From NCBI RefSeq assembly GCF_023100945.1, contig NZ_CP064689.1, positions 5,066,001 through 5,130,000 of the forward strand: a stretch of DNA of 64,000 nucleotides, written 5' to 3'. Within the stretch, counting starts at the first letter, position 1. Each line of letters opens with the position of its first letter. Positions 19,430-64,000 of the stretch are shown piece after piece. The DNA comes from Bradyrhizobium sp. 200. GTDB taxonomy: Bacteria; Pseudomonadota; Alphaproteobacteria; Rhizobiales; Xanthobacteraceae. A program made the position numbers and the translations under genes. The notes beneath the pieces are model-generated. The model was given only the letters and a program-made list of their open reading frames with translations. It searched no databases and had not been told where the DNA came from.

Positions 19430-19445
19430 TTGGCCACTCCTAATC

Positions 19446-19995: not shown

Positions 19996-20016
19996 TTGCC
20001 GTCCTCCGACGGTGAT

Positions 20017-20031: not shown

Positions 20032-20036
20032 GCTCG

Positions 20037-21146: not shown

Positions 21147-21165
21147 GTCCGTCTCCTCAATCAAA

Positions 21166-21218
21166 TTTAGATTGCGTTCGAACTCTATATTTGATATAGA
21201 TTACAACTGCAATCTAAA
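21166..21218. promoter_or_regulatory. 53-bp nested palindrome between efflux operon and tetR
   Basis: Outer arms TTTAGATTGC (21166-21175) and GCAATCTAAA (21209-21218) are perfect 10-bp inverted repeats. Inner arms TCTATAT (21184-21190) and ATATAGA (21194-21200) form another perfect repeat around TTG. Both share the same centre at 21192. GTTCGAAC at 21176-21183 is itself a palindrome. The block ends 15 bp before the TetR start and 19 bp before the adaptor start, as expected of an operator that controls both directions. Confidence 0.7.
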
Positions 21219-21233
21219 AAATGGAGGTCGACA

Positions 21234-21812: not shown

Positions 21813-21844
21813 AAGATGGCCCCCTTCAGAGCAGGAGAGATCGA

Positions 21845-22696: not shown

Positions 22697-22789
22697 CCGC
22701 AATGATTAAACACGGGAGCGCGCAACCCAGCGCTGCGCCCGAGCCGATCGATGAGACGTTCATGAGTAACTCAAGAAGGTAATCTCATT

Positions 22790-28355: not shown

Positions 28356-29171
28356 ATGGACATGGCGCAATCTGACGACGCTGGAAAGGACAAACTCGCA
28401 ACATCCCTATCTATGGCAAATGCACGAGATACCGTCGCGTGGTCTATCGCTATCCAATGCGAAATTCCGCAAGAAAAATTGGATGTGCGGTGGTTGACCA
28501 ATCCAGGCATCTCACGCCCGATCGAGCAGTTAAGACCGGGGGAGATCGCCTTCTGGCTAGCGGCAGTGCATTCCCCTCATGACCAACGCACCGAAGGACT
28601 CGGCGCGCTCAGCTTCGAGCAGGCTGCCGCGGTGCTCGATGTTGAGGAAGCCAGCCGCCTGGTGCGCTTCCTGCATATTGAGGATCGACACAGCTACCTG
28701 GCGGCGCATGCCAGCGTCCGCCTTCTGCTAGCGAGCATTGTGGGCCAATCAGCCGACACCTTGCGATTCCGACCGTCCACGCACGGCAAGCCGATGCTCG
28801 TCGCTGGCCCGCCCGGCATCGACTTCAACCTGAGCCATGCAAGAGGAGTGGTCGCCGTCGCTGCAGCATATTCGCCGATCGGCGTCGATGTAGAGCCGTT
28901 GCGGGAAATAGCCGATCTGGATTCCGTAAGCGAGATCGTTCTGGCTCGCCAAGAGCAGGAGATCTTGTGGAACGCCCCGCCGGCAGTCCGGTCGCGGCTG
29001 TTTCTTCGCTACTGGACCCTCAAGGAAGCCATACTGAAGGCAGCCGCGCGTGGATTCATGATTCCACCAAATACGGTGATTGTCGACGCAGGCCCGTCAC
29101 CTGCCGTCCTTTCGGTACCAGCAGCGCTCGGAACTGTCTCGCAATGGCGACTTATCGCTTCCGCCGCCTGA
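28356..29171 (+). CDS. Sfp-type 4'-phosphopantetheinyl transferase
   Basis: The 271-residue protein has the two PPTase signatures: GIDFNLSHARGVVAVAAA leading to IGVDVEPL (about residue 177, Mg-binding acidic residues) and RYWTLKEAILKAAARGF (about 219). It transfers phosphopantetheine from CoA to the carrier-domain Ser of the NRPS proteins, and so activates the assembly line. The first ATG (28356) is used here; no strong ribosome site is visible, and an ATG at 28413 is an alternative. Its stop is 3 bp from the stop of the convergent N-monooxygenase gene. Position next to siderophore genes supports a dedicated role. Confidence 0.9.
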   Translation: MDMAQSDDAGKDKLATSLSMANARDTVAWSIAIQCEIPQEKLDVRWLTNPGISRPIEQLRPGEIAFWLAAVHSPHDQRTEGLGALSFEQAAAVLDVEEASRLVRFLHIEDRHSYLAAHASVRLLLASIVGQSADTLRFRPSTHGKPMLVAGPPGIDFNLSHARGVVAVAAAYSPIGVDVEPLREIADLDSVSEIVLARQEQEILWNAPPAVRSRLFLRYWTLKEAILKAAARGFMIPPNTVIVDAGPSPAVLSVPAALGTVSQWRLIASAA

Positions 29172-29174
29172 CGG

Positions 29175-30473
29175 CTAAGCTATGAGTTCGCGGCGCGAAA
29201 TCGTCAAAAGCAGCGATTCGGCGATTTCCTGCGCGCGGGTAGCCAGAACGGAGAGCAACGTGTCACTCAGACCGTGAGACGCCTCGGAGTATCCCTGGAG
29301 ATGGATTTGCGGCCGAAACGCCGGGCTCGTGGCGAGCCTGTAGTTGCGGTCAACACCGTCGTTCTGGATATAGCGCCGTATCGGCTCCAGAAACGCGTGC
29401 GGTGTTTCCCTGTCATAGCCGGTCGCAAGGATAACGGCATCGTAGCAGGAGCGGCGGTCCCGACCGTCGAACTTATCAACCGTTCGGATCTCGATACCCT
29501 CAACGGCCGCGAGCACCTTCGTGATTTCACTGCGCGGATGCAATTCGATGCCTGTCGTGCCGCTGACGCGCTGCTGGTAGAGCAAACGGTACAACTGATC
29601 GAGCAGATCGGAATCGACGACGGCATAGTTGGTATTTCGAAAATTGCGAACGATCGCGTCCCGACGCTCGTCCGGCTGACCGTAGATAAAGTCCGTGTAA
29701 TCCGGATTGAATATCTCGTTGACGAACGGGCTGCTGTCGGACGGCTTCAACGCATGGCCGCGAAAGATCAGGTCAATGTTCGCGTGCGGAAAGCGGTTTC
29801 GAAGATCGACCGTCACCTCAACCGCGCTCTGCCCTCCCCCGATAACGGCCACGCACGCAGCCTTGCCGCCGAGTCCAACGGACTCCACCGTATCGAGGTA
29901 GCGGCTGGAGTGGAACAGTCTGGGATCATCGGCGATTCTCGCGAATACCTGCGGAATATTGGCTCTTCCTCCTGCCGCAACCACCAGATTTTTCGCAAGC
30001 CGCACCGTTTCACCGCCAGCGAGCGTGCATGAATACACCCGCAACGACGTCACCGACTGCCCTGCCGTCACCGGCTCGACGGCGACGACGGTTTCGCCAT
30101 AAGCCGATTGCGGCTTGAACTGAGCTGCCACCCACCGCAGATAGTCGTTGAATTCCATTCTGCTCGGATAGAACGTTCGACAGTTGATGAAATCCTGCAA
30201 ACGGCCGTGCTTGTGCAGATAGTTCACAAAAGTGAACGGGCTGGTTGGATCACGCAACGAAACCAGATCCTTGAGAAATGAGATCTGCATATCGCTGCCC
30301 GGCAGCAGCATGCCGCCGTGCCAGGTAAATTGGCGTTGCCTCTCCACGAAAAGAGGAGCGCATTTCAGACGTGACCTTCTGGCGCACTCGTCCAATGCGA
30401 TTGCAAGAGCAAGATTGGAAGGGCCGAATCCGACGCCGATGACGTCGTGCTCGATCGCAAGCTGATGAGACAT
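29175..30473 (-). CDS. L-ornithine/L-lysine N-monooxygenase (PvdA/IucD family)
   Basis: This 432-residue flavin monooxygenase has the FAD motif GVGFGPSNLALAIAL at residues 13-27, FTWHGGMLLPGSDMQISFLK (a family hallmark), an NADPH motif VIGGGQSAVEV near residue 208 and the VILATGYDRETPH motif near 348. The family hydroxylates the side-chain amine of ornithine or lysine, the first step to hydroxamate iron ligands. Ornithine is favoured by the NRPS context, but sequence alone does not exclude lysine. It starts 22 bp after the acyltransferase gene, so the two are one operon. The hydroxylated amine is then acylated by that neighbour. Confidence 0.93.
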   Translation of the reverse strand: MSHQLAIEHDVIGVGFGPSNLALAIALDECARRSRLKCAPLFVERQRQFTWHGGMLLPGSDMQISFLKDLVSLRDPTSPFTFVNYLHKHGRLQDFINCRTFYPSRMEFNDYLRWVAAQFKPQSAYGETVVAVEPVTAGQSVTSLRVYSCTLAGGETVRLAKNLVVAAGGRANIPQVFARIADDPRLFHSSRYLDTVESVGLGGKAACVAVIGGGQSAVEVTVDLRNRFPHANIDLIFRGHALKPSDSSPFVNEIFNPDYTDFIYGQPDERRDAIVRNFRNTNYAVVDSDLLDQLYRLLYQQRVSGTTGIELHPRSEITKVLAAVEGIEIRTVDKFDGRDRRSCYDAVILATGYDRETPHAFLEPIRRYIQNDGVDRNYRLATSPAFRPQIHLQGYSEASHGLSDTLLSVLATRAQEIAESLLLTISRRELIA

Positions 30474-30495
30474 GAAACGGCGCTCCGTTCGCGCG

Positions 30496-31557
30496 TTAGG
30501 CCATGGTTATCGGGCCGGTCGCCGCCGGTAGCCACAGCCGGTCACCAAAGAAGCGCTCGCGCAGGAGCATGACGAGCGTAGCCCGCTTGTGCGGAAAATC
30601 GAAGTTCTTGATCTTCGCGAATCCCGAGACTTCCAGATTGCGGATCTGCTGAGAATGCGCTGCCGCCGGCTCGCCGACGATTCGCTGCGTTCGACAATCG
30701 TCCAGGAACATGTAGTGCATCAGCGATGGCAACCAGGCACTGATGTAGCGGCGTCCCCGATAGGCATCCTCGCCGACGACAACGTGCCAGCCACGATCGT
30801 AATCGTCGGCATCGTAGAATGGCGCGATGCGATTCTCCTTGGCCCAATAGACTTCGAAGTAGCCAAAGGGCGCGTTACCGAAGCAGCCGATCAGCGGCAG
30901 CATGTGCGGATCCGCCAGAATGGCGGACAGGTACTTCCGGTGCTTATCGAGATCGCCGGCTTCGTTCCAGAAGGCGTCGACGCGAGGATCGTTCATCCAC
31001 CGGTGCAACAGATGCAGATCATCGTTCAGATCGGCAACACGAAACGAGATCACCTCGGCGAGCCAGGGGATGAAGCGGGCATACACCATCCCCGCAGGCT
31101 TTTGCGAACGTCGCGGATGCCGTTTGCCGTCGGTCATGACGTGAAGTTGCGGCAATGGCGGCCGTTCGGCATCGACCAGCCAATTGTCACGGCGCTGCAT
31201 GGTTAGCTCCGGGAGCAGCACGAAGTTGCTTCCGGCCATGACCGCAAGACCATGGTCCAGCAATTGGCGTCCGATGGGTTGCTGGTCGACCGAATCCAGA
31301 AAAAGCCGGTCGAGACCTGGGCGCCATCCGAACATGGCCTCCGCTGCCGCCGAAACGGCTCGTACCGCGAGCCGCGGATCGTCGGGAGCCTCCAGCATCT
31401 TCAGATGATCCAACCCCTCATCGAGACGCAGACGCATCACGGTGGCGTCATCTGCAACCACCCGAATGTCCGCGCCGTCCTGAAGGACCGTCATCGCGGA
31501 ATGAGGCCCGATCGGAAACGCGTGAGGGTCTTTCGCGAAGTTCGAGGCTTTGTTCAT
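30496..31557 (-). CDS. IucB-type N-hydroxy amine acyltransferase (GNAT fold)
   Basis: The protein has 353 residues. The C-terminal half (about 170-340) is the siderophore acetyltransferase domain: FIPWLAEVISFRVADLNDDL, HRWMNDPRVDAFWNEAGD, GYFEVYWAKENRIAPFYDA, DYDRGWHVVVGEDAYRG and RIVGEPAAAHSQQIRNLEVSG. Enzymes such as IucB, RhbD and VbsA acylate the N-hydroxylated amine, which completes the hydroxamate. Because no formyltransferase is seen in the window, the hydroxamates are more likely acetyl or another acyl than formyl. The exact acyl donor cannot be read. The gene lies 229 bp downstream of the exporter. Confidence 0.88.
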   Translation of the reverse strand: MNKASNFAKDPHAFPIGPHSAMTVLQDGADIRVVADDATVMRLRLDEGLDHLKMLEAPDDPRLAVRAVSAAAEAMFGWRPGLDRLFLDSVDQQPIGRQLLDHGLAVMAGSNFVLLPELTMQRRDNWLVDAERPPLPQLHVMTDGKRHPRRSQKPAGMVYARFIPWLAEVISFRVADLNDDLHLLHRWMNDPRVDAFWNEAGDLDKHRKYLSAILADPHMLPLIGCFGNAPFGYFEVYWAKENRIAPFYDADDYDRGWHVVVGEDAYRGRRYISAWLPSLMHYMFLDDCRTQRIVGEPAAAHSQQIRNLEVSGFAKIKNFDFPHKRATLVMLLRERFFGDRLWLPAATGPITMA

Positions 31558-31703
31558 CCGGCACTCGCATTGCAGACGTGACTGTTTGAAACAAGACGCG
31601 ACTTTCGCTCACGCATGCGATGTAAATCACTCGCGTGCAGGATGACAAGGAATGCCAACGCACGCAGTTTAGATTCTTTACAAAACCGTCGAGTGACCAT
31701 CGC

Positions 31704-31738
31704 CGGGACTTCCCATGCCTTATTCAAGGCAAGTCCCG
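31704..31738. terminator. hairpin between exporter and acyltransferase genes
   Basis: CGGGACTT (31704-31711) pairs with AAGTCCCG (31731-31738), and GCCTT (31717-31721) pairs with AAGGC (31726-31730), giving a bulged hairpin with a four-base loop. It lies about 50 bp after the exporter stop. No T-tract follows, so a terminator function is only possible; it may instead be an attenuating or mRNA-end structure. Confidence 0.35.
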
Positions 31739-31785
31739 CCGGCGTCCGAACTTAGATTCAAATTTTTCCGAAAAACAAAATAGGT

Positions 31786-33489
31786 CTAAAGAGAAGCGTT
31801 GGTTGGAACTGATGACCGCTCGATGACGTTATGGTCCCTCGCCTCGCCAGCGACGATCTTGCCGTTCCGAAGGCGCACAAGGTGGTCCGCCGCGCTAAAA
31901 TAACGGTCGTCATGCGAGATCACGATGATCGTCTTGCCCAGGCGCTTCAGGTCAGGCAGCAATTCCGTGTAGAAGATGTGCCGGAACGCCGGATCCTGAT
32001 CGGCCGCCCACTCATCGAACACCAGAACCGGCCGCTCCTCGAGCCAGGCATTCATCAGCGCCAGCCGCTTGCGCTGCCCGGTGGACAGATCCGTCGTTGT
32101 AAACACGCCATTTTCGACCGAAACCTTGTGTGCGACCTCCAATCGCTCAAGGTACCGCTCCGCGATATCGGGCACCATTCCTGCGCCCTGCAGGAGATCT
32201 TCAAACAGATAGTAGTCGGAAAAGATGGTGGTGAAGAGTTGCCGGTAGTCATCGCGCGTTTCCGTTACGACCGACAGCCCATCGCGAAGCACCGTGCCGG
32301 TCTGTGGGGCATAAAGGCCCAGCAGCAGCTTGATGAGCGTGGTTTTTCCGCTGCCATTTTCGCCGACAATGAAAACAATGTCTCCGTGGCGAATATGCAG
32401 GTCAATCGGTCCAAGAACGAAGGGGTTGCTGCCGGACACGGCACGGAACGCGTATGACACCCCACGGAGTTCGATCGACTGGATCCTGGCAGATGCTTCC
32501 GGCGCGGTCGAGGGCGCTGCCAGCAAATCGTGTTCGGGCGTCGAGAACTGTTCCGAGAGCTCGGCGATGCGGCGCATCGCCACCTGTGCGCGGCCGAGTG
32601 CGGGCAAGATGCCTATGACCTGGTCAATGGGACCTCGCATATAGAGCAGCACAAGCACAAAGCCGCTTGAGACCGAGGCAGGACTGTCCGGCCACAGGAA
32701 TGGGCGCAAGGTCAGCGCCACACCGATCACGACGAAGAACAGCATCGTGCCGAAAGCCCGTGCGGTCACGAAGAGATTGATCGACTTGACCTGCACCGTG
32801 CTGATCCGGTCAACGGTACGCTGAAGCTTGTCCACGTACACGCGCTGCCGGCGGATGCGGTTCAGGCGCAATTCCTTCGCACCTTCCGCGATCGCCCGGT
32901 AGTGCTTCTGCAATTCATCTTCCGAGTCGCGGGCGTCATTGAAGCCCCGAACCCCTCGCGTACGCGCATAGGCATGCGCCAGCGAACCCAGGATTATGAC
33001 CAATCCCGTGATCAGGAACAGCGGCCACGACAATACCGCCAGGTAGACCATGCAGCCGAAGGTGATGACGACTGACACGAAGAAGGAGGAGAAGAAGAAC
33101 GCGAAATCGCTGATTGTATCGACGTCCTGCGTGAGAACCGGAATCAGCCGATGCGTCCGATAGATTTCGAGCTGGTCGATCGGCGCCGCCAGAATCTTGG
33201 CAGCGAGGGACTTGCGAAGCTCCGCGATAATCCGCTGTCCGACATAGTTGGCGCTGATATCGGCGCCGATGGAGCCGATCAGGATCAGCAGACAGAGGCC
33301 TGCGAAAGCGAACAGCAGCGTCGCGACGTCGCTTTGCGACGCGTAGAGCCCGCGATTGACGACCGCGAGCAGCCCCGCCACGCTGGCGCCGCCGACAATG
33401 CCGAGAACGATGCCGCCGAGCACGATTGGCCAGTATGGCCGCAGGAGATACAGGATCTGCGCCGTCAGGCCGCGTCGTGGATTCATCAT
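31786..33489 (-). CDS. cyclic-peptide/siderophore exporter, fused ABC permease-ATPase (PvdE-like)
   Basis: The protein has 567 residues from ATG at 33489 (ATGATG pair). An open frame extends to 33681 and an ATG at 33573 is possible; no ribosome site is decisive. Six membrane helices occupy residues 1-330, then an ATPase follows with Walker A GENGSGKTTLIKLLLG (about 375), the signature LSTGQRKRLAL (about 470) and Walker B VLVFDEWAADQDP. LSTGQRKRLAL and DEWAADQDP are hallmarks of the PvdE/SyrD group, which moves peptide siderophores or precursors across the inner membrane. It is divergent from the siderophore-interacting reductase gene. Confidence 0.9.
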   Translation of the reverse strand: MMNPRRGLTAQILYLLRPYWPIVLGGIVLGIVGGASVAGLLAVVNRGLYASQSDVATLLFAFAGLCLLILIGSIGADISANYVGQRIIAELRKSLAAKILAAPIDQLEIYRTHRLIPVLTQDVDTISDFAFFFSSFFVSVVITFGCMVYLAVLSWPLFLITGLVIILGSLAHAYARTRGVRGFNDARDSEDELQKHYRAIAEGAKELRLNRIRRQRVYVDKLQRTVDRISTVQVKSINLFVTARAFGTMLFFVVIGVALTLRPFLWPDSPASVSSGFVLVLLYMRGPIDQVIGILPALGRAQVAMRRIAELSEQFSTPEHDLLAAPSTAPEASARIQSIELRGVSYAFRAVSGSNPFVLGPIDLHIRHGDIVFIVGENGSGKTTLIKLLLGLYAPQTGTVLRDGLSVVTETRDDYRQLFTTIFSDYYLFEDLLQGAGMVPDIAERYLERLEVAHKVSVENGVFTTTDLSTGQRKRLALMNAWLEERPVLVFDEWAADQDPAFRHIFYTELLPDLKRLGKTIIVISHDDRYFSAADHLVRLRNGKIVAGEARDHNVIERSSVPTNASL

Positions 33490-33704
33490 GAGTGCCGCGC
33501 TTGAGTAGAGCTGAAGCGAACCTACACGGCCCGTCGTGATACGAACAGCCTTGCTGGAGTGATGCGAATACATGATGGCAGCATCGCTCTGCCAGGCCTT
33601 ATTTTTCGGCCTTTTTCGATTGATTCTAATTTGCGATCGGCGACGCGCTTTAATAAAATGAGAGTGGTATCGCCTTTGCATCGCAGCCGATGAGCGTGTA
33701 GGAC
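33490..33704. promoter_or_regulatory. divergent promoter region of exporter and reductase genes
   Basis: These 215 bp separate the exporter (minus) and siderophore-interacting reductase (plus) starts. They become AT-rich at about 33600-33655 (TTATTTTTCGGCCTTTTTCG, then ATTCTAATTT). Both directions probably start here. No perfect iron-box palindrome was found by eye. Confidence 0.4.
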
Positions 33705-34865
33705 TTGGATCCAGCCGTGTCGGGCCGCGATATCCAAAAATCGAAGCGCTTGCAGGCCAGCATCGGACAGGCCCGACTGGAGGATGCCCGACTGGAGGAC
33801 GACTTGGATTCGCTGATCTCCGAAACCCGCATTCCGCTTGCCGATGCCGCCGGTCTTGCCGCGCGAATGATCGACCACCTGGCCGAACATGACATCGCCT
33901 TCGAGGACCAGGGCGGCCTGATGGTGGCCAAATTGCCGTTTGGAACCAGTTCGCTCGCCGTCGAGGCCGAGGCGCTCAAGATCCGCGTCGAAGCCTATGA
34001 CAAGGGCAACCTCGAAATGCTGCGCTCGGTCGTAGCATCCCACGTCATCGAGTTCGCCGGTGACGAGGCGCCGACCATCGTTTGGTCCGGCCATGAGTCC
34101 GATGGCGGCACGCTTGCCAATTTCCGTGAAGTGCGGCTGAAGGCAGCCTTCGACCTCACGCCCCGCATGCGCCGGCTGACCTTTACCGGAGACGACATCG
34201 CGCGCTTCGTGAACGACGACGACCTGCATGTCCGCCTGTATTTCCCGCCGGAGGGCCTCGCCAAGCCTGAATGGCCGTGGCCTGCCCCCGACGGGCGCAT
34301 CCTGTGGCCCGAACCCGATCGCAGGCCTCTCACCCGCTACTACACGATCCGTCGCATCGATCTGCAGACCAGCGAGATCGATATCGATTTCGTGGTTCAT
34401 GATCATGCCGGACCCGGCTCGGCGTTCGCCCTCAATGCGCAAGTCGGAGCCATTTGCGGGATGGCCGGTCCGCTCGGGCGAGGCATTCGTTCGGCGCGCT
34501 GGTTTCTCCTCGCCGGCGACGAAACCGCATTGCCCGCAATGGCGCGCATTCTCGAGAAGCTGCCGGCGACGGCAACGGGGGAAGTCTTCATCGAAGTCGC
34601 CGACCGGCTCGAGGAAGTTCCGCTGGTCGCACCCACCGGCATGTCGGTCCGCTGGCTGCACCGCGGCGACCGTCCAGCCGGGACGACGCAGTTGCTGGTC
34701 GATGCCGTCAAGGCCGTGCAGTGGCCTGATCATCGCGAGGTCTTTGCGTGGGTGGCCTGCGAAGCGCAGGCACTCAAGGCGCTGCGAAATCATCTGCGCG
34801 ATGAGCGAAAACTTCCCCGCGAGCAGCACCTTGCAGTCGCGTATTGGAGCCTGCGTCAGCCATGA
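33705..34865 (+). CDS. siderophore-interacting protein (FAD ferric-siderophore reductase) with N-terminal DUF2218-like domain
   Basis: The frame starts at TTG 33705 and has 386 residues. Residues about 37-115 form a small DUF2218-like domain. From about 140 on comes the ferredoxin-reductase-like SIP domain: RRLTFTGDDIARF, RPLTRYYTIRRID (flavin-binding RxYT) and HDHAGPGSAFALNAQVG, then the NAD-binding-like FLLAGDETALPAMARIL and AWVACEAQALKALR. Such proteins reduce ferric siderophore in the cytoplasm to release iron. The gene is 74 bp before fhuC and probably co-transcribed. A 15-bp tandem duplication lies at codons 23-32. Confidence 0.9.
   Translation: MDPAVSGRDIQKSKRLQASIGQARLEDARLEDDLDSLISETRIPLADAAGLAARMIDHLAEHDIAFEDQGGLMVAKLPFGTSSLAVEAEALKIRVEAYDKGNLEMLRSVVASHVIEFAGDEAPTIVWSGHESDGGTLANFREVRLKAAFDLTPRMRRLTFTGDDIARFVNDDDLHVRLYFPPEGLAKPEWPWPAPDGRILWPEPDRRPLTRYYTIRRIDLQTSEIDIDFVVHDHAGPGSAFALNAQVGAICGMAGPLGRGIRSARWFLLAGDETALPAMARILEKLPATATGEVFIEVADRLEEVPLVAPTGMSVRWLHRGDRPAGTTQLLVDAVKAVQWPDHREVFAWVACEAQALKALRNHLRDERKLPREQHLAVAYWSLRQP
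33771..33800 (+). repeat. tandem 15-bp duplication in the reductase gene
   Basis: GCCCGACTGGAGGAT is followed directly by GCCCGACTGGAGGAC, so ARLED is repeated twice. It is in frame and outside the recognisable domains. Confidence 0.85.
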
Positions 34866-34939
34866 CGTCCCGGTGTCCCATACGTGGACCGGCCTGGCTG
34901 CGTTCTCCTTGCACCACATAGTTCCACTAGGCGCTTCCC

Positions 34940-35764
34940 ATGCACGCAGTTCTGCCAACCGAAACCGCTCCGGCGTCGCGCGACGCGGCTACGCCCTTGT
35001 TCGCGCTGGACCAGGTCAGCTTCGCGGTTGCGGGCCGCGCGCTGCTCGAACCCCTGACCTTGACCCTTCCCGCTCGCAGCGTCGTCGGCCTGATCGGACA
35101 CAATGGCTCCGGCAAATCGACCCTGCTGAAGCTGTTGGCGAGGCAGCAGCCAAGTTCCTCCGGCACGATCCGCTTTGAAGGGCGCCCGCTACGGCAATGG
35201 AGCGATCGGGAATACGCCCGCAAGGTGGCCTACCTGCCACAGCAGACGCCCCCGGCCGCAGGCATGCTGGTCAAGGAGCTGGTCGCGCTCGGCCGCTATC
35301 CGTGGCATGGCGCGCTCGGCCGATTTGGCGACACCGACCGTGACAAGGTGGCTGAAGCCATGGCGCTGACCCATATCGAGCCGTTTGCGGATCGGCTGGT
35401 CGATACATTGTCAGGCGGCGAGCGCCAGCGGGTCTGGATCGCCATGCTGGTTGCGCAGGACGCCGAATGCCTGCTGCTCGACGAGCCGATTTCGGCGCTC
35501 GACATCGCCCATCAGATCGAAGTTCTGTCGCTGGTGCAGCAGCTCGCCCGCGAGCGTAACCTCGGCGTCGTCGTCGTTCTCCATGACGTCAACATGGCGG
35601 CCCGCTTCTGCGACGAGATCATCGCCCTGCATTCGGGCAGGCTGATAACCCGCGGCGCGCCTGATCGGATCATGACGCCGGCCGAACTTGAAACCATCTA
35701 CGGCATCCCCATGGGGGTGATGCCGTCTCCAGATCAAAGCCACCTCATCAGCTTTGCGCGATGA
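34940..35764 (+). CDS. fhuC: iron-siderophore ABC transporter ATP-binding protein (FhuC-like)
   Basis: This 274-residue ATPase has Walker A GHNGSGKSTLLKLL (about residue 53), the Q-loop region, signature LSGGERQRVWIAM (about 157) and Walker B CLLLDEPISALD, then the H-loop VLHDVNMAARF. KELVALGRYPWHG is a mark of the FhuC/FepC iron-siderophore group. It drives uptake with the FhuB permease encoded convergently at 35801. The two stops are 36 bp apart, so the transporter parts sit in two transcripts. The ATG at 34940 has only a weak ribosome site (AGGCG). Confidence 0.92.
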   Translation: MHAVLPTETAPASRDAATPLFALDQVSFAVAGRALLEPLTLTLPARSVVGLIGHNGSGKSTLLKLLARQQPSSSGTIRFEGRPLRQWSDREYARKVAYLPQQTPPAAGMLVKELVALGRYPWHGALGRFGDTDRDKVAEAMALTHIEPFADRLVDTLSGGERQRVWIAMLVAQDAECLLLDEPISALDIAHQIEVLSLVQQLARERNLGVVVVLHDVNMAARFCDEIIALHSGRLITRGAPDRIMTPAELETIYGIPMGVMPSPDQSHLISFAR

Positions 35765-35800
35765 CAGAGGGCGAGTCACCCGCCTTTCCATCGCGGCATG

Positions 35801-38738: not shown

Positions 38739-38790
38739 GAAAATCGGCTTAAAAGAGCTCTTGCGGCCAGGGCCAGGGAACAGAAGGCCA

Positions 38791-39798: not shown

Positions 39799-39806
39799 GC
39801 GATTGT

Positions 39807-56243: not shown

Positions 56244-59200
56244 CGGAAAGTTCAATTTCCTTCAACATGTCGAGCATCGCGGCGATGTCGTCGCCGCGCT
56301 TGTCGACCTGAATCTCCGGGGCGAGAGCAGCCGCCATCGTTTCGATGGTCGTCATCTCAAACAGGCGGTTCAGCGGCAGGTCGTGACCGAGATCGCGCTT
56401 GATGCGGCTGACGAGCTGGACGGCGGTGAGAGAGTCCCCGCCGAGTTCGAAGAAATTGTCGGTGACGCCGATATTGGGCTGGCGCAGCAGGTCGGCCCAG
56501 ATGGCGGCCAATGCCGCCTCGACCGGCGTGCGCGGTGTCACATGCTCGGCGCCGGCGAGTTGATCCGGCGCCGGCAACGCCTTGCGGTCGATCTTGCCGT
56601 TCGGCGTCAGCGGCAGCCGCTCCAGCACCACGATCCGCGCCGGCACCATGTAGTCCGGCAGCACCGAGGACAGGGCGGTCTTGATCGCCGGTCCATCCAG
56701 CGACGTCTCGCCGCTGACATAGCCCACGAGCTGACGGCCTGCCCCGGCCTCGCGCGCCACCACCACCGCCGACCGTACGCCGGCCTGCGCCAGCAGCCGC
56801 GCCTCGATCTCGCCAAGCTCGATCCGGAAGCCGCGGATCTTCACCTGATGATCGGAGCGGCCGATATATTCGATCACGCCGTCGGCGCGCCACCGCGCCA
56901 CGTCGCCGGTACGGTACAGCCGCGCGCCTGAGGGGCCGAACGGATCGGGAATGAAGCGCTCCGCCGTCAGCGCGCCGCGTTGCCAATAGCCGCGCGCGAG
57001 TCCTGCACCGCCGACATAAAGCTCGCCGGCAACCCCGACCGGCGCCAGGTTGAGGTCGTTGTCCAGGATGTGCAGCGTGGTGTTGCCGATCGGGCCGCCC
57101 AGCACCGGACGGTTGTCCTGTGCGTCGAGGCGGTGGCGGGCCGACCACACCGTGGTCTCGGTCGGACCGTACAGGTTCCACACCTCGCCGGCCTGCGCCA
57201 CCAGCCGCCGCGCCAGATCCGGCGCCAGCGCCTCGCCGCCGCACAGCACGCGGCAGCTTGCCGGAAGCGACGGGCCGTCATGATCAAGCAGCATCCGCCA
57301 GGTCGACGGCGTCGCCTGGATCATGGTCACGCCCTGGGCTGCCACCATCGCCTTGAGCCTGACAGGATCATGTGCCGCCGCACGATCCGCCAGCACCACG
57401 CGCGCGCCTATGGTGAGTGGTAGCCACAGTTCCAGCACCGCAATGTCGAACGACAGCGAGGTCAGGCCGAGCACCCGATCCTGCGCGCTGAGGCCCGGCC
57501 GCTCCGCCATCGTCGCCAAGAAGTTCGTCACCGCATCGTGGCGGACCATTACGCCCTTGGGCAGGCCGGTCGAGCCTGAGGTGTAGATCACATAGGCCAG
57601 GCTCTCGGGGTGAATTGTGAGATCGAGGTTGCCGGCATCACGGCCTTCGCCATCCTTCTCGTCGAGCAGCCACTCTTCGGCGCCGGTCTCCTTGAGCACC
57701 GGCGCGAACTGCTCCAGCAGCGCCGTCTGCGTCAGCACCAGTGCTGCGCCGCTGTCGCGCAGCATGTGGGCAAGTCGCTCCGGCGGGTAATCCGGATCGA
57801 GCGGCAGATACGCCCCGCCCGCCTTCAGCACCGCCAGCAACGCGACCATCATCCCGACGCCGCGCTCCAGCGCCAGCCCCACCACCACGTCTGTCCCGAC
57901 ACCGTAATCCCGCAGTCCCCGCGCCAGCACGTTGGCCCGTCCATTCAGCTCGCCGTAGCTTAGCGCCTCATCGCCAAACACAAGTGCTATCGCATCCGGA
58001 GATTGGCGGACCTGTTTCTCGAACTGCTCATGGAAACGACGATCTCGTGGATATCGGACATCCGTCCGATTCCACATCTCCAGCAAAAGCTGTCGCTCGT
58101 CGCAAGGCAGAATATCAAGTTGCCGCACTGGAGAGCGTGGCGCACGTTCCAGATTCTCGGCCAATTGCTCGAGCGCACGCTGCATCAACGCGCAAACGCG
58201 ATCGGGCGACAGCGGATGGATCACCTGCGCCGTCACACCCAGCGCCTGACCGTAATCCTCCACCGCCAACATCAGCGGATAGTTGGTGCGCTCTTCGCCG
58301 CCGAGCCACTCGATGCCGTCCACGCCTGCGGTGGGCGCGTCCGCAGACGGGTTGTCCGGCATGGCGTTGTGACGATAGTTCAGGATCGAACTGAACAAGG
58401 GAGCCGGCGCCGCGACGTTGCTGCATCGTTGCGCGAGCGCAAGCGACGCATGTTCATGCGCCATCAGCTCGGCGAGCCGGGCTTGCGCATGACGGACACT
58501 GTCTTCGACCGAGGTGCCATCGAGGTCGAGCCGCAGTGGCAAGGTATTGATGAACAATCCCATGGGACGATCGCCGCCGGCGCCGGCATGCATGCGGCCG
58601 AACAGCACCGTGCCGAACACGACGTGCTCGCGCCCGCTGCTCCGCGCCACCACCTGGCCCCAGGCGAGATGGCAGAGGCTGGCGAGGCTCACGCCCAGGC
58701 GCCGCGCCTGAGCCCGAAGCCGTCCGTTGAGCGATTCCGACAGCGTTCGCCGCGCTTCCGCCACCCCACGGCCGTCGCCGTGCACCCTGTCCAGACCAAA
58801 CGGCGTGGTCGGCTCATCGATATGCGACAGCATGCTTCGGAAGAAGCGTTCATGCTCAGCCGTAGTGTCCGAATCCAGCGTCTGGGCCAAGAGATTGCGG
58901 AACGGATACGGATCCGTCAGCTCATGACCGCGCCCGGACAATATCTTCCGGACTTCATCATGCATCACTTCAAGGGTGGAATGATCCCCGATCAGGTGAT
59001 GCAGCAATACGAGCAGCAGCCAGCGGTCATCCCTGCCGGGATCGCGGGCCACCGCAAATCGCAACAGCGGCGCCTGTCGCAGATCGATCCGATTCCGACG
59101 CGGATCAAAACGCCGCGCAAGCTGTTCATGCACCGGGCTTTCGCGATCCAGTTCGACCTCGGTGACAATCAAGGGAGCGCGTCGCCAGACCACCTGGGCC

Positions 59201-62200
59201 GGGGTGGAAAGACCCTCCCATTCAATGGACGTGCGAAGGATGTCGTGACGATCGATCACCTGCTGGACGGCAGCCAGATAGCGGTCGAGCAAGTCGCGGC
59301 TCGCAAACGCCATTTGGCCGACGAGCAAATAGGGATCGCCTTGCGCCGCCAGCAGGTGGTGAAACAGGATGCCGTCCTGAAGCGGCGACAGTCCGTAAAT
59401 GTCCTGAACGTTGGCAACACCACCGGGAACGCTGGCCACGACGCTATCGATGTCCGATTGCTCCAATCTGATCAACGGCAACATGCCGGGCGTAATCGTG
59501 GTGGCCTGCATCGGGATCAGGTTGGCCGTCACTTCGGCTACATCGCCACCATCAAGGCTTGCGGCGAAATCACTCAACACCGGCTTGGCGAACAGCGTGC
59601 GCACATCCGCGCTGAGCGAATGCCGATGTAGCCGCTCCAGCACGCGGACCGCGAGCAGCGAGTGGCCGCCCAGTTCAAAGAAGTGATCGTTGCGTCCAAT
59701 GCGCTCGACGCCCAGCAGCTCGGCCCAGACCTTCGCAACAGTTTCTTCGCGTTCGCCTTGCAGCGCTTCATAGCCGCGACGCACAAACGCATCGTCCTCA
59801 GGCGCCGGCAGCGCCTTGCGATCGACCTTGCCGTTCGGCGTGAGCGGCAACGCGTCCAGACGCACGAAAGCCGACGGCACCATATGTTCCGGCAAGCAAG
59901 CACGGAGATGGCTGCGCATCGCAGATGCAAACTCGCCGCTGTCAAGCCTGGAGCCGTCATCCTCCTGCGCGGCCGGCACCACATAGGCAACCAGCCGCCG
60001 GTCCCCGCCGTGATCCTGCCGCGCCAACACCACCGCATCGGCCACACCGGCATGCTGGTTCAGTCGAAACTCGATCTCGCCCAATTCGATGCGGAAGCCG
60101 CGGATCTTGACCTGATAGTCATTTCGACCGAGAAACTCGATATTGCCATCCGACAGATAGCGTCCGAGATCGCCGGTGCGATACATCCGCGCGCCTATGT
60201 CGCCATCAAAGGGATCGAACACGAAGCGTTCCGCCGTCAGATCGGTGCGATCGAGATACCCGCGCGCGACCCCTGCCCCGGCGATGTAAATCTCGCCGAT
60301 TGCCCCGAGCGGAACGGGCGCGCCGAATTTGTCCAGCAGATAAATCCGCGTGTTCGGAAGCGGGCGGCCGATCGGAACGATGCCCCCTTCAAAGCCCATC
60401 GGACGCAGCCACGTCGTGGCGCAGACGGTTGTCTCCGTCGGCCCGTAGCCGTTGAAGACGGCTATATTTGAAGGCAGTCCCTTGATAAGTTCGGCCTTGG
60501 GCAACTCGCCGGCAAGGACGAGCACTTGCAGCGATGCAAAACAATCAAGGTCCGTCCGTCCCTGCAGCATGGCCGGCGGCAAGGTCGCATGCGTAATCCG
60601 CTCGCGCGCGAGATAACTCAGCAGCTCCGACGCGTTGCGATGCTCGCGCGGACCCACGAGAAACAATTCGGCTCCCGCACACAGGGCCATGACGATTTCC
60701 CAAGTGCTGGCATCGAAACTGAACGAAGCGAACTGAACGACGCGGCTGCGCGAGGAAACTTCAAACAGCGCTTGCTGGGCCAGCGCCAAATTCACCAGGC
60801 CGCGATGCTCGACTGTCACGCCTTTTGGCGTGCCGGTCGAACCGGATGTGTAGATGATGTAGGCAAGATGACGTGATGTCAGGCCCGCGACGTCAGGGTT
60901 TGACTTCTCCAACCCGGCGATCGTTTCCGCGGTCATCTCCAGATCGACGATCTCGCACGACGTATCTGCGAGCGCCGCGCGTCCGGCACCATCACAAATC
61001 AACAGCTTCGGTTTTGCATCATCGACGATCTGGTGCAGGCGTTCGGTCGGATAGGCAGGATCCAGCGGCAAATAGGCGCCGCCCGCCTTGAGTACGGCCA
61101 AGAGGCTGACGACCATGGCAATACCGCGTTCCAGGCAGATCGCCACGGGCTGATCAGGAACCACGCCCAATCCGATCAGATGGTGAGCGAGCTGATTGGC
61201 CATTACATCGAGTTCGCCATAGCTCAGGCGAAGGTTCTCGTGGACCAATGCAGTGGTATCGGGCGCTTTTCGGACTTGCTCCACGAACAGTTCATGGATG
61301 CAACGTTCCGAGGGGTACGGCGAAGCGGTCTGATTCCAGGTCTTCAGAACGAGTTCTCGTTCCTCGGCATCCACCATATCGAACCGGTCGATGACCCGAT
61401 CCGCGCCGGCGACCATGGCTTGCAGTAGGGTAAGCAGATAGTTCCGATGACGTTTGACAGTTGCTTCGTCAAACAGCGCCGTTGCGTAATTCAAGGTCCC
61501 GACGATGCGGCCGTCGGCCTCGCTCAGGTTGAGCTCGAGATCGAACTTGACCTCGCGAAGGGGGATATCGGCGATCTCGGCCTTGAGGCCAGGCAGTTCG
61601 AATACTGCCGACTCGTTGCTCTGCCAGGCGAACACAACCTGAAACACCGGGGTATGATCGAGACGTCGCGGCGGCTGAATGATCTCGACGAGCTGCTCGA
61701 ACGGTAGATCCTGGTGATCCTGAGCCGCCAGCGCTGCGCCGCGCACGCGGTTGAGCAACTCCGCCATGTCAGGCTCGCCCGACAAATCGACGCGGAGCGC
61801 CAGCATATTGACGAAGAAGCCGACCAGACCTTCAATTTCACGCCGGTTGCGATTGGCTGTCGGCGTACCAATCACGACATCGCTCTGACCGGAAAGCCTC
61901 GACAGCACAGCCGCCCATGCCGCCAGCACCGTCATGAATGCCGTCGTGCGATGCATTTGGCCGAGCCGCTTGATGCCACGAGCTAGCTCGGCGCCGATTT
62001 CGATCGGCAACGATGCGCCGGCGAGCGACCTCATCGGCGCTCGCGGTCGATCGGTCGGCAATTCGAGCAATACCGGCGCGGCTGCCAGCGTCTGCCGCCA
62101 ATGGCCGACCTGCTGCTGCAGCCGTTCTCCCGTAAGCCACTGCCGTTGCCAGGCGGCATAGTCTGGATACTGAATCGTCAGCGGCGGCAGCGGATCGCCC

Positions 62201-62817
62201 TTGCCGGCAATGAAGGCGCGATACAACGCGCCAAGCTCGCGCACGAGAACACCCATCGACCAGCCATCGGAAACAATATGATGCTGGGTGAGCAGGAAAA
62301 GATACTCGCCCTCCTCGAACCGGATGAGGCGCCCGCGGATCAACGGTCCCCGAGAGAGATCGAAGGGCTCATTTGCCTCTTCGCTGCACAAGCGCTCAAG
62401 TATCTGGTCGCGTTCCGGTTCGGCTCGCACATCATGGAGAAGCAAAGGCAGGCCCTGGTCGATGGGCAACAGCTCGACGCAAGGCTGTCCATCGGACATA
62501 CGAAAAACGCTGCGCAGCGCTTCGTGGCGCGCAAACAGCCGGTCAAGACTACGGCGCCAGGCGGTGACGTCGAGACCGCCCGAGAGGCGCAATGCGCCGC
62601 GAATATGATAGTTGGTGCTGGTGCCATCGAGCTGCGACAACAGCCAAAGCCGCCGCTGTGCAAATGACAGGGCAAGGGGCCCGTCGCGCGGCACCGCCGG
62701 TATCGCGGCGAGTTCGTTCCTGTTGGCATTCCGCGCCCGGTCCTTGGCCAGCAGCAGGAGTTTTCTCAACCCTTCTGCATCCAGCTCCCGCAAGTCGCGT
62801 TTCAGTGAATTCGCCAT
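56236..62817 (-). CDS. two-module NRPS (C-A-T-C-A-T)
   Basis: The protein has 2193 residues; the ATG is 3 bp after the preceding NRPS stop. Landmarks are C1 HHIVSDGWS 179; A1 YTSGSTG 655; T1 GGHSL 1052; C2 start YGLSPLQDGILFHH 1140 with HHLIGDHST at 1275; A2 YTSGSTG 1744; T2 GGDSL 2127. The acidic C-terminus (MLDMLKEIELSDE) looks like a docking helix towards the next NRPS. The A1 code read by eye is DAWTVAGVCK, close to Phe-type codes. A2 is DILQCGLVWK, close to Gly codes and the same as A3 of the next protein. C1 is of the ordinary LCL type. C2 has His instead of Gly after the catalytic Asp. No E domain is present. Confidence 0.94.
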   Translation of the reverse strand: MANSLKRDLRELDAEGLRKLLLLAKDRARNANRNELAAIPAVPRDGPLALSFAQRRLWLLSQLDGTSTNYHIRGALRLSGGLDVTAWRRSLDRLFARHEALRSVFRMSDGQPCVELLPIDQGLPLLLHDVRAEPERDQILERLCSEEANEPFDLSRGPLIRGRLIRFEEGEYLFLLTQHHIVSDGWSMGVLVRELGALYRAFIAGKGDPLPPLTIQYPDYAAWQRQWLTGERLQQQVGHWRQTLAAAPVLLELPTDRPRAPMRSLAGASLPIEIGAELARGIKRLGQMHRTTAFMTVLAAWAAVLSRLSGQSDVVIGTPTANRNRREIEGLVGFFVNMLALRVDLSGEPDMAELLNRVRGAALAAQDHQDLPFEQLVEIIQPPRRLDHTPVFQVVFAWQSNESAVFELPGLKAEIADIPLREVKFDLELNLSEADGRIVGTLNYATALFDEATVKRHRNYLLTLLQAMVAGADRVIDRFDMVDAEERELVLKTWNQTASPYPSERCIHELFVEQVRKAPDTTALVHENLRLSYGELDVMANQLAHHLIGLGVVPDQPVAICLERGIAMVVSLLAVLKAGGAYLPLDPAYPTERLHQIVDDAKPKLLICDGAGRAALADTSCEIVDLEMTAETIAGLEKSNPDVAGLTSRHLAYIIYTSGSTGTPKGVTVEHRGLVNLALAQQALFEVSSRSRVVQFASFSFDASTWEIVMALCAGAELFLVGPREHRNASELLSYLARERITHATLPPAMLQGRTDLDCFASLQVLVLAGELPKAELIKGLPSNIAVFNGYGPTETTVCATTWLRPMGFEGGIVPIGRPLPNTRIYLLDKFGAPVPLGAIGEIYIAGAGVARGYLDRTDLTAERFVFDPFDGDIGARMYRTGDLGRYLSDGNIEFLGRNDYQVKIRGFRIELGEIEFRLNQHAGVADAVVLARQDHGGDRRLVAYVVPAAQEDDGSRLDSGEFASAMRSHLRACLPEHMVPSAFVRLDALPLTPNGKVDRKALPAPEDDAFVRRGYEALQGEREETVAKVWAELLGVERIGRNDHFFELGGHSLLAVRVLERLHRHSLSADVRTLFAKPVLSDFAASLDGGDVAEVTANLIPMQATTITPGMLPLIRLEQSDIDSVVASVPGGVANVQDIYGLSPLQDGILFHHLLAAQGDPYLLVGQMAFASRDLLDRYLAAVQQVIDRHDILRTSIEWEGLSTPAQVVWRRAPLIVTEVELDRESPVHEQLARRFDPRRNRIDLRQAPLLRFAVARDPGRDDRWLLLVLLHHLIGDHSTLEVMHDEVRKILSGRGHELTDPYPFRNLLAQTLDSDTTAEHERFFRSMLSHIDEPTTPFGLDRVHGDGRGVAEARRTLSESLNGRLRAQARRLGVSLASLCHLAWGQVVARSSGREHVVFGTVLFGRMHAGAGGDRPMGLFINTLPLRLDLDGTSVEDSVRHAQARLAELMAHEHASLALAQRCSNVAAPAPLFSSILNYRHNAMPDNPSADAPTAGVDGIEWLGGEERTNYPLMLAVEDYGQALGVTAQVIHPLSPDRVCALMQRALEQLAENLERAPRSPVRQLDILPCDERQLLLEMWNRTDVRYPRDRRFHEQFEKQVRQSPDAIALVFGDEALSYGELNGRANVLARGLRDYGVGTDVVVGLALERGVGMMVALLAVLKAGGAYLPLDPDYPPERLAHMLRDSGAALVLTQTALLEQFAPVLKETGAEEWLLDEKDGEGRDAGNLDLTIHPESLAYVIYTSGSTGLPKGVMVRHDAVTNFLATMAERPGLSAQDRVLGLTSLSFDIAVLELWLPLTIGARVVLADRAAAHDPVRLKAMVAAQGVTMIQATPSTWRMLLDHDGPSLPASCRVLCGGEALAPDLARRLVAQAGEVWNLYGPTETTVWSARHRLDAQDNRPVLGGPIGNTTLHILDNDLNLAPVGVAGELYVGGAGLARGYWQRGALTAERFIPDPFGPSGARLYRTGDVARWRADGVIEYIGRSDHQVKIRGFRIELGEIEARLLAQAGVRSAVVVAREAGAGRQLVGYVSGETSLDGPAIKTALSSVLPDYMVPARIVVLERLPLTPNGKIDRKALPAPDQLAGAEHVTPRTPVEAALAAIWADLLRQPNIGVTDNFFELGGDSLTAVQLVSRIKRDLGHDLPLNRLFEMTTIETMAAALAPEIQVDKRGDDIAAMLDMLKEIELSDE
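56439..58029 (-). repeat. near-identical A-T block, copy in the two-module NRPS
   Basis: This is the partner of 44030-45620, covering A2 and T2 of this protein. After the GGDS motif the two copies diverge: this one continues as SLTAVQLVSRIKRD and ends, while the other continues as SIISLQMVSRARRE. The homology break falls inside the carrier-domain motif. Confidence 0.9.
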
Positions 62818-62820
62818 GGT

Positions 62821-63999
62821 TCACAATCCCGACGCGATCAGCTCTTGAAGTTCTTCTGCATCGAACTCCCGCTCGATCAGCCTGATCGAAACGATCCGCG
62901 CGAACTGGGCGAGTTCAGGATGAACGAACAGATCTGAAATCTGAATCGACACGCCGAGCTCCTGCGACACCCGACTGAGCAGCCGCACCGCAAGCAATGA
63001 GTGCCCGCCGAGCTCGAAGAAGTGATCGTTGCGGCCTATGCGATCCACGCCAAGCAATTCGGCCCAGATGTTTGCGAGCGCGATCTCGATTTCGTCCTCG
63101 GGCGCCTCATAGCCGCAACGGGCCAGGGCGTCATCGTGTGGCGGCGGCAACGCCCGTCGATCGATCTTGCCGTTGGGAGTCAGCGGCAATTGTTCGAGCA
63201 CGACGACTGCCGATGGAACCATGTAGTCCGGGAGAGTGGCGGATAACGCTTGACGCAGCGCGAGGCCGTCGAGTGCAGCTTCACCGCTCGCATAGGCAAT
63301 CAACTGACGTCCCGCCTTGGCCTCGCGTGTCACCGCGACGGCGGCGCGCACGCCGCGCTGCTCCAGCAAACGCGCCTCGATCTCTCCCAGTTCGATCCGG
63401 AAACCGCGGATCTTCACCTGATGGTCCGCGCGGCCGACATATTCGATCACGCCGTCCGCCCGCCACCGCGCCAGATCGCCGGTCCGGTAGAGACGTCCGC
63501 CGTCGCCGCCAAACGGATCCGGAATGAAACGTTCCGCCGTCAGTCCGCCGCGTTTCAAATAGCCCCGTGCCAGCCCTATGCCGCCAATGAACAACTCGCC
63601 CGTTACGCCGGCGGGGACCATGTTGAGGTCAGCGTCGAGAATGTAGGCAGACCGGTAACCAACGGGCCGCCCGATCGGCGCGTATTGACCCGGCGTCAAC
63701 GCGGCTTCGTCGACCACCCACGCCGTCGGCGCGATCACCGTCTCGGTCGGCCCATAGGCATTGATCAGAAGATCGACGTTGGCTGCCCGGCGAAACGTCT
63801 TGATTCCGGCATCCGACCAGGCTTCGCCGCCCACGATGCAAACCCGCAGCGAAAGGTTGCGGCCGCTGTGCCGCAACGCTTCGCTCAATTGATCCGCATA
63901 GGCCGGAGGCAGAAAGAGCGTCGTGACCGAATTGCGCTCGATTTCGTTGACGAGGTCGTCGATCAGCAGGCCAGGCCTGGACGGCAGAACAAGCGATCC
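62821..63999 (-). CDS. NRPS, C-terminal A-T part (start outside window)
   Basis: The frame is open to the right edge; 392 residues are visible. They begin inside an A domain (SVTTLFLPPAYADQL), pass INAYGPTETVIAPTAW, YRTGDLARWRADG, VKIRGFRIELGEIEARL and NGKIDRR, then a carrier domain DHFFELGGHSLLAVRLLSR and a short tail EELQELIASGL that may dock to the next NRPS. Code positions visible are 278 F, 299 I, 301 G, 322 A, 330 I, 331 A and 517 K; positions 235, 236 and 239 are outside the window, so no residue is assigned. It is the first NRPS of the line that can be seen. Whether earlier modules or a fatty-acid starter domain exist cannot be judged. Confidence 0.92.
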   Translation of the reverse strand, partial: GSLVLPSRPGLLIDDLVNEIERNSVTTLFLPPAYADQLSEALRHSGRNLSLRVCIVGGEAWSDAGIKTFRRAANVDLLINAYGPTETVIAPTAWVVDEAALTPGQYAPIGRPVGYRSAYILDADLNMVPAGVTGELFIGGIGLARGYLKRGGLTAERFIPDPFGGDGGRLYRTGDLARWRADGVIEYVGRADHQVKIRGFRIELGEIEARLLEQRGVRAAVAVTREAKAGRQLIAYASGEAALDGLALRQALSATLPDYMVPSAVVVLEQLPLTPNGKIDRRALPPPHDDALARCGYEAPEDEIEIALANIWAELLGVDRIGRNDHFFELGGHSLLAVRLLSRVSQELGVSIQISDLFVHPELAQFARIVSIRLIEREFDAEELQELIASGL

Positions 64000-64000
64000 G

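Follow-up and report, generated by a model that had tools for sequence, protein, structure and literature searches.

Which siderophore would be made by the nonribosomal peptide synthetase (NRPS) genes of Bradyrhizobium sp. 200, and from where would it take its third pair of iron ligands? The question was raised by a window of 64,000 nucleotides (bases 5066001-5130000 of one contig of 9.49 Mb), in which a sequence-only reading had recognized an NRPS locus for a hydroxamate siderophore. The two hydroxamates expected from it give four iron ligands, and the third bidentate donor was proposed to come from outside the visible part or from an unassigned residue. Two NRPS genes are contained in the window as a whole and a third, NRPS-A, only in part, as it ends 8.6 kb past the right edge. 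40 kb were retrieved, 30 kb of them past this edge, with an exact join to the window, and the extended coordinates given below continue the window numbering. The cluster runs on for about 13.5 kb beyond the edge and is very probably a complete set of genes for a lipopeptide siderophore that combines hydroxamate and beta-hydroxyaspartate ligands. The predicted product, primed with a fatty acid and built of eight amino acids, is hexadentate acyl-D-bOHAsp-X-D-Phe-Gly-D-(acyl)OHOrn-D-Ser?-Gly-OHOrn (bOHAsp or OHAsp, beta-hydroxyaspartate; OHOrn, hydroxyornithine).

Genes for the expected donor were found within 9.7 kb past the edge, in the form of an Asp module and, separate from the NRPS, an Asp beta-hydroxylase that stands alone. 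The adenylation domain A1 of this module had the code DLTKIGHVGK, which agrees at nine of ten positions with the code DLTKVGHVGK reported to serve Asp and Asn (PMC12283262). Its first eight letters, DLTKIGHV, are the signature tabulated for two D-Asp modules of a Pseudomonas syringae pyoverdine, the Asp of which is beta-hydroxylated (PMC3207962). The H-x-E...H iron site and an Arg residue were kept in all 28 aligned hydroxylases, which comprised the query and a selection of 27 among the 80 named loci retained by the hydroxylase search. Since the Asp code of A1 and an Asp beta-hydroxylase adjoin, a third bidentate ligand is expected, which together with two hydroxyornithines would make a hexadentate set.

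All 18 loci with a hydroxylase at least 89% identical to the query, among the 80 named loci kept, were from Bradyrhizobium. The enzyme was 67% identical to that of Pandoraea aquatica, and the authors of the work on pandorabactin describe its L-erythro-3-hydroxyaspartate as likely formed by PanH (PMC12144892). In a tree of 27 of the 80 loci the query was placed in an alphaproteobacterial group and the Pandoraea enzyme in another part. A subtype of stand-alone Asp beta-hydroxylases (TBH_Asp) giving L-erythro-hydroxyaspartate was reportedly defined by Reitz in 2019. The start of such a cluster, with a 73% identical hydroxylase and the same layout as in Inquilinus, was also seen in a record named Mycobacterium sp. 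KBS0706 (locus L043), possibly a mislabelled genome.

The order of the domains, their families, the conservation of the codes and the catalytic residues were read directly from the sequence. The Pfam models gave 11 Condensation-family domains in the three NRPS proteins, eight of them in NRPS-B and NRPS-C and three in NRPS-A, which also had three AMP-binding and three carrier (T) domains. NRPS-B consists of two modules and NRPS-C of four amino-acid modules, two epimerisation (E) domains and a thioesterase (TE) domain, the order of domains in NRPS-C being assigned with our own profiles. NRPS-A opens with a loading module of fatty-acid-AMP ligase (FAAL), T and condensation (C) domains. Residues 1-560 match fatty-acid-AMP ligase models, among them PRK05850 (534 bits) and FadD32 (420 bits), all with scores under the model cut-offs. 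The whole cluster was also read in 12 further Bradyrhizobium genomes, making 13 clusters with its own, and the loading module was present in 13 of 13. The order of seven modules proposed at first was right for modules 2-8, and had to be extended to eight amino-acid modules and a FAAL loading module, the Asp module and the beta-hydroxylase being outside the window.

Substrate codes were read by alignment to the GrsA domain. In A4 and A7, position 331 is in an alignment gap and was taken from the GPTE motif, and position 299 flips between L and V with the alignment. A5 and A8 had the code DGEGSGGVTK, listed among the codes for modified Orn (PMC12283262). A4 and A7 both gave DILQLGLVWK, eight of ten positions of the Gly code DILQLGMIWK (PMC12283262), and A3 gave DAWTVAGVCK, seven of ten positions of the GrsA Phe code. 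The codes of A2 and A6 were DIEFIGAIAK, for residue X, and DVWHFGRINK, for a residue tentatively read as Ser-like. As a control the P. aquatica locus (L046) was read in the same way, giving FAAL-T-C-A(DGEGSGGMTK)-T-E-C-A(DLTKVGHVGK)-T. This code order fits the acyl-OHOrn-Asp of pandorabactin, the structure of which was determined in two other species of Pandoraea in which the cluster is conserved (PMC12144892). Two hydroxyornithine codes, an ornithine monooxygenase and an acyltransferase are present in the cluster, and the designation as an NRPS hydroxamate siderophore locus is supported.

E domains follow A1, A5 and A6. The latter two account for the two D-residues marked in the sequence-only reading. 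C2, C6 and C7, which are located after E domains, cluster together and apart from C1, C3 and C5, and C8, downstream of the achiral Gly, also groups with C2, C6 and C7. As judged from this grouping, the types of the C domains agree with the placement of the E domains. C4, located after Phe, carries a second His motif, HHLLAAQGD, found at C4 in 12 of 12 genomes and at each of the ten other C/E positions in none of 12 (genome G233, in which C4 is split, was left out of this count). The motif HH[I/L]xxxxGD near the N-terminus is reported to mark Dual E/C domains, by which the residue upstream is epimerised (PMC1894796). C4 has this motif and is placed after a C-A-T module without an E domain; its active-site motif is HHxxxDH and not HHxxxDG. 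C4 is therefore predicted to be a Dual E/C domain that gives D-Phe, an additional D-residue, and the predicted chain is acyl-D-OHAsp-X-D-Phe-Gly-D-OHOrn-D-Ser?-Gly-L-OHOrn. The low score of C4 (144.7 bits) had also suggested a hydroxylase interface domain, which was rejected, C4 being the sole condensation domain of its module and having the Dual E/C motif.

What is proposed here on the chemistry and stereochemistry, on the ligands and acyl groups and on the physiology is deduced from established families. The FAAL domain would load a fatty acid, and module 1 would add Asp, which would be beta-hydroxylated on the carrier by the stand-alone dioxygenase and then epimerised, to D-threo-OHAsp if the residue is L-erythro. 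Modules 2-4 would add residue X, Phe (epimerised by the Dual E/C domain) and Gly. Modules 5 and 6 would add N5-acyl-N5-hydroxyornithine and the Ser-like residue, both epimerised, and modules 7 and 8 Gly and another hydroxyornithine. Orn would be N-hydroxylated and acylated ahead of its loading, as proposed for PanF/PanQ (PMC12144892). The TE domain would then free the chain as a linear product, a lactone or a cyclic hydroxyornithine, and two hydroxamates together with beta-hydroxyaspartate would offer six oxygen ligands to Fe(III). Export by the PvdE-type pump, uptake of the ferric complex by the TonB receptor and FhuBCD, and release of iron by the SIP reductase, perhaps aided by the esterase, would complete the cycle.

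The genes for these steps are collected in Table 1. From right to left, all on the minus strand, the order is TonB receptor, MbtH, type II thioesterase, TauD-family dioxygenase, NRPS-A, NRPS-B, NRPS-C, alpha/beta-hydrolase, FhuD and FhuB; next leftward are FhuC, the SIP reductase, the exporter, the acyltransferase, the ornithine monooxygenase and the 4'-phosphopantetheinyl transferase (PPTase). Only FhuC, the SIP reductase and the PPTase are on the plus strand. Pfam and NCBIfam models thus confirmed in one locus all the genes first named there, i.e. PPTase, N-monooxygenase, GNAT acyltransferase, exporter, FhuB/C/D, SIP reductase and NRPS genes. The best solved relative of the monooxygenase was 3s5w, an L-ornithine 5-monooxygenase (447 bits vs 292 bits for the best lysine enzyme). 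Of the 13 matches to PF13434 in the genome, the monooxygenase alone was full-length. The acyltransferase matched the solved structures of SidF (7qf6, 2.7e-52) and MbtK (1.6e-20). The true start of the exporter is probably near residue 65 of the longest open reading frame (ORF). No match to IucA/IucC was found in the genome.

FAAL loading and Phe occur in non-siderophore lipopeptides too, and the product could be imagined as a surfactant or antibiotic with iron genes as chance neighbours. That two hydroxyornithine codes stand in one block with the monooxygenase and acyltransferase, the Asp hydroxylase, the PvdE-type exporter and, in 12 of the 13 clusters read, the TonB receptor makes such a coincidence hardly credible, and the locus is preferably read as a siderophore cluster.

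Table 1. Features of the predicted siderophore cluster of Bradyrhizobium sp. 200; coordinates marked extended continue the window numbering past its right edge.
Feature	Position	Strand	Evidence and remarks
4'-phosphopantetheinyl transferase	28356..29171	+	PF01648 2.1e-13, PF22624 1.8e-10
L-ornithine N5-monooxygenase, PvdA-like	29175..30473	-	PF13434 374 bits
GNAT acyltransferase for hydroxyornithine	30496..31557	-	PF13523 2.8e-55; relatives SidF, MbtK
Cyclic-peptide (PvdE-like) ABC exporter	31786..33681 (longest ORF)	-	TIGR01194 685 bits, above cut-off, residues 70-611
Irr/ICE-like box	33614..33630	.	between reductase and exporter genes; 3 mismatches to consensus
Siderophore-interacting FAD reductase (SIP, with DUF2218)	33705..34865	+	PF04954 1.6e-40, PF08021 6.1e-31
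FhuC-like ATPase	34940..35764	+	NF007863 FhuC 405 bits, cut-off 433 not reached
FhuB-like double-length permease	35801..37873	-	PF01032; NF007866 725 bits vs cut-off 554
FhuD-like periplasmic binding protein	37794..38894	-	PF01497; NF007864 220 bits, cut-off 252 not reached
Alpha/beta-hydrolase (Abhydrolase_3)	38791..39798	-	PF07859 2e-74; directly after NRPS genes; putative role
NRPS-C	39807..56255	-	5482 aa; C-A5(OHOrn)-T-E-C-A6(Ser-like)-T-E-C-A7(Gly)-T-C-A8(OHOrn)-T-TE; Pfam, own profiles, codes
Terminal thioesterase domain	39810..40700	-	PF00975 7.8e-22
Gly module A7 repeat tract	44023..45620	-	98.4% identical to 56432-58029 (self-blastn)
Epimerisation domain after A6	47001..48410	-	HHLVVDGVSW motif, own profile
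Epimerisation domain after A5 (hydroxyornithine)	51561..52970	-	HHLVIDGVSW motif, own profile
NRPS-B	56236..62817	-	2193 aa; C-A3(Phe)-T-Dual E/C-A4(Gly)-T; Pfam, codes
Gly module A4 repeat tract	56432..58029	-	self-blastn
Dual epimerisation/condensation domain (C4)	58078..59445	-	HHLLAAQGD; predicts D-Phe
NRPS-A	62821-72606 extended (62821..64000 in window, C-terminal part)	-	3261 aa; FAAL-T-C-A1(Asp)-T-E-C-A2(DIEFIGAIAK)-T
A2 domain	63133-64656 extended, partly in window	-	code DIEFIGAIAK
Asp beta-hydroxylase, TauD-family dioxygenase	72668-73636 extended	-	PF02668 1.3e-47; stand-alone, adjoins NRPS-A
Type II thioesterase	73605-74360 extended	-	PF00975 on N-terminal piece
MbtH	74382-74612 extended	-	
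TonB siderophore receptor	74996-77470 extended	-	TIGR01783 274 bits, above cut-off

A search for Irr/ICE-like boxes with at most three mismatches to the consensus gave three in the window, where 0.29 would be expected; the one at 12008 is not in the cluster. The box between the reductase and exporter genes was found at the same site in nine of nine close-clade clusters and in none of four BTAi1-type clusters, conservation among nine close relatives being weak evidence. Similar boxes (2-3 mismatches) were present upstream of the TonB receptor in eight of the nine and two of the four, respectively. The boxes are in keeping with iron control. A second Irr/ICE-like sequence in an intergenic region of the cluster was observed at 31668-31684. 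Elsewhere in the window (16316-24052) an RND pump and a membrane-fusion protein are located beside a TetR regulator, an alpha/beta-hydrolase and a ketosynthase, and further Condensation domains were seen in long open frames elsewhere in the genome (C1:2140930-2142264, 1879 aa; C1:6688095-6692294, 2166 aa).

The domain order was identical in 13 of 13 clusters, C4 of G233 being in two frames. Genome G163 agrees in order, and the cluster of B. aeschynomenes (G002) ends with its contig. The code of A1 varies only between I and V at one position, those of A5, A6 and A8 are invariant, and A3 stays Phe-like, with the variants DAWTVAAVCK in the BTAi1-type clusters and DAWTVGGVCE in G141. In all 13 clusters the monooxygenase and the NRPS genes shared one block, as expected if they belong to one pathway, and the alpha/beta-hydrolase was present at 77-92% in 12 of 12 relatives. 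This conservation scan kept matches to FhuC and to the exporter only from 45% identity upward. In G142 (L139-L142, C1:3080000-3145000) extra broken A/E/C pieces were observed inside NRPS-C, representing a decayed internal duplication or sequencing errors.

Several observations weigh against the reading proposed here. A6 agrees with a Ser code at only five of ten positions. A2 fits an Arg pattern at seven of ten, and the hydroxyornithine code itself fits this pattern at six of ten, so the match is not discriminating. FhuC and FhuD are under the NCBIfam cut-offs; the 54 kb examined for each of the four BTAi1-type clusters gave no match to FhuB/C/D, reductase or PPTase, and the cluster regions of G025 and G069 gave none to the PPTase. 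C2 of G069 showed no HHxxxDG motif. The frame break in the Dual E/C domain (C4) of NRPS-B in G233 (locus L095) is in a one-contig genome. Finally, in the survey in PMC12815270 siderophore was detected in only one of six Bradyrhizobium strains tested, and earlier work cited there found it in one of 20.

Residue 2 of the peptide differs between clades. A2 had the code DIEFIGAIAK in nine close-clade clusters and the Gly code DILQLG[LM]VWK in the four BTAi1-type clusters, and residue 2 was read as Gly in B. aeschynomenes also. Among the 26 annotated of the 80 named loci, A2 had the code DIEFIGAIAK in six, which belong to B. murdochi, B. lablabi, B. yuanmingense, two Nitrobacter and a Hyphomicrobiales metagenome-assembled genome. 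As the ligand codes are fixed while residue 2 varies, it is argued that residue 2 is not a ligand. In G000, A2 is closest to the Gly domain A4 early (76 and 82% in windows of columns 51-125) and to A5/A8 in columns 151-225 and 301-350 (54-63%), and its end is like A4, A5 and A6. Columns 201-300, which hold part of the code, have at most 35% identity to any other A domain of the cluster. A2 looks remodelled. The idea of a hydroxyornithine core in a Gly scaffold was only partly borne out, the edges being hydroxyornithine-like and the centre unlike the other domains of the cluster. In a sparse class sample of 385 genomes only two, both Bradyrhizobium, matched the A2 core at 1e-50. The code DIEFIGAI was not found as text in the open-access PMC literature searched.

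If A2 loaded a third hydroxyornithine, the product would carry three hydroxamates in addition to beta-hydroxyaspartate. This is suggested by the nearest relatives of the A2 core in the class sample, namely the domains for hydroxyornithine in the clusters themselves (in G000, 49 and 51% identity over 210 residues). Nevertheless, the A2 code differs from that of A5/A8 at six of ten positions, the middle of the core is unlike any other A domain of the cluster, and Gly takes the place of residue 2 in four of four BTAi1-type clusters and in B. aeschynomenes with the ligand codes unchanged. A third hydroxyornithine is accordingly considered unlikely, and two hydroxamates with one beta-hydroxyaspartate are the preferred ligand set.

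The tracts of the two Gly modules A4 and A7 in the window have 98.4% identity over 1598 bases. A comparison of 12 genomes (G233 was not included) showed A4 and A7 to be more similar to each other within the genome (89-99.7%) than to their orthologues in any other of the 12 (83-91%) in 11 cases. G231 was the exception, with 80.4% vs 83.5 and 81.8%. No such effect was seen for A5 and A8, which load the same residue and are 61-65% identical within a genome. This is concerted evolution of A4 and A7, probably by gene conversion. A shorter cluster with modules 5 and 6 lost was considered for B. yuanmingense CCBAU 10071 (G261) and B. diazoefficiens SZCCT0449 (G254), and was rejected as an assembly split. 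In these drafts the main piece seems to pass straight from A4 to the A7/A8 end, and the stretch T-C-A5-T-E-C-A6-T-E-C is located on separate contigs of 11.7 and 11.0 kb. In L153 both contig ends exactly match the Gly-module region of the main piece (163 and 77 bases), and in L152 one end only matches it (685 bases, 95.3%). These two draft assemblies split the cluster at the Gly modules, and surveys of drafts can truncate it.

The distribution of the cluster was estimated in 265 genomes of the genus. The hydroxylase (E <= 1e-60) was found in 45, of which 34, including its own genome, were at 83% or more, eight at 74-78% and three only at 48% or less. The acyltransferase was found in 44, 42 at 63% or more and two at 53-57%. 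Excluding those three and two, both sets were the same 42 of 265 genomes, with both genes on one contig in 35 and on different contigs in seven.

Bradyrhizobium has been described as poor in siderophore synthesis (PMC12815270). In that survey 41 of 278 strains had mbaABCH, none had mbaE, which was called essential, and malleobactin production was doubted. Because of the similar frequency and gene set, the mba genes of the survey, although from different genomes, are probably the present cluster, read as malleobactin genes without one enzyme. The single strain with detected siderophore, B. yuanmingense CCBAU25021, is an mbaABCH strain, and in B. yuanmingense CCBAU 10071 the present cluster is found, divided into two pieces. 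The survey suggested an incomplete or defective pathway of the malleobactin type for such strains, which would agree with these counts and with the ornithine monooxygenase, NRPS domains and Asp hydroxylase (59% in the Burkholderia Ac-20365 locus) common to the present cluster and malleobactin/ornibactin. However, the present cluster is FAAL-primed, has eight modules and, compared with the architecture of malleobactin, has a GNAT acyltransferase in place of the formyltransferase MbaE. No formyltransferase family was found among the cluster proteins scanned, and the frames are intact and the order conserved in 13 clusters, except for the break in C4 of G233. An incomplete or defective malleobactin pathway is thus very improbable.

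The broader proposal is that the cluster defines a new family of lipo-octapeptide siderophores and that roughly one Bradyrhizobium species in six, and relatives in Nitrobacter, rely on it as the main siderophore of their own making. It would have been overlooked because drafts are split at the two concerted Gly modules and similarity tools give incomplete-malleobactin calls. Remodelling of a single adenylation domain would have switched the non-ligand residue 2 between Gly and a different residue, probably a basic one, with no change in the residues that bind iron. We regard this whole proposal as about as likely as not. A conserved pathway whose hydroxylase and acyltransferase occur together in 42 of 265 species genomes alters the picture of a siderophore-poor genus that is a main soybean microsymbiont. 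It also points to a defined product that can be sought, B. yuanmingense, the only survey species with detected siderophore (PMC12815270), being one place to do so. The cluster also offers a natural case of NRPS editing, with two Gly modules evolving in concert and an adenylation domain changed where iron binding imposes no constraint.

The module order had not been recognized from any known siderophore at first, and among the matches listed from the open-access PMC literature, a weak negative, no product with this order and none for Bradyrhizobium or Nitrobacter was found. The kind of pathway, FAAL-primed mixed-ligand lipopeptide siderophores, is already known; no report of the present product itself was found. 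Lipopeptide siderophores with beta-hydroxyaspartate have been described (PMC10484230). Taiwachelin, cupriachelin, variochelin and serobactin are likewise lipopeptide siderophores, and a review table has FAAL entries for taiwachelin, variochelin and serobactin (PMC11837247). The four differ from the present product in residue order and length. None of them is known to contain Phe. The lactuchelins of Pseudomonas lactucae share FAAL-type loading, hydroxyaspartate and N-hydroxyornithine (hydroxylase 63% in locus L076), but are reported to have seven residues and a cyclic depsipeptide core with 3-hydroxybutanoate (PMC12904278). Pandorabactin (pan, Pandoraea; PMC12144892) resembles the present system in the FAAL-primed NRPS, near-identical hydroxyornithine and Asp codes, MbtH, the hydroxyornithine acyltransferase, the stand-alone Asp hydroxylase compared above, the ornithine monooxygenase (52%) and the type II thioesterase (47%). 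However, its six modules are predicted to give acyl-OHOrn-Asp-Thr-OHOrn-Ala-Asp, an order with no Phe or Gly, and its ligands are described as two hydroxyaspartates and one hydroxamate (PMC12144892), compared with the one hydroxyaspartate and two hydroxamates predicted here.

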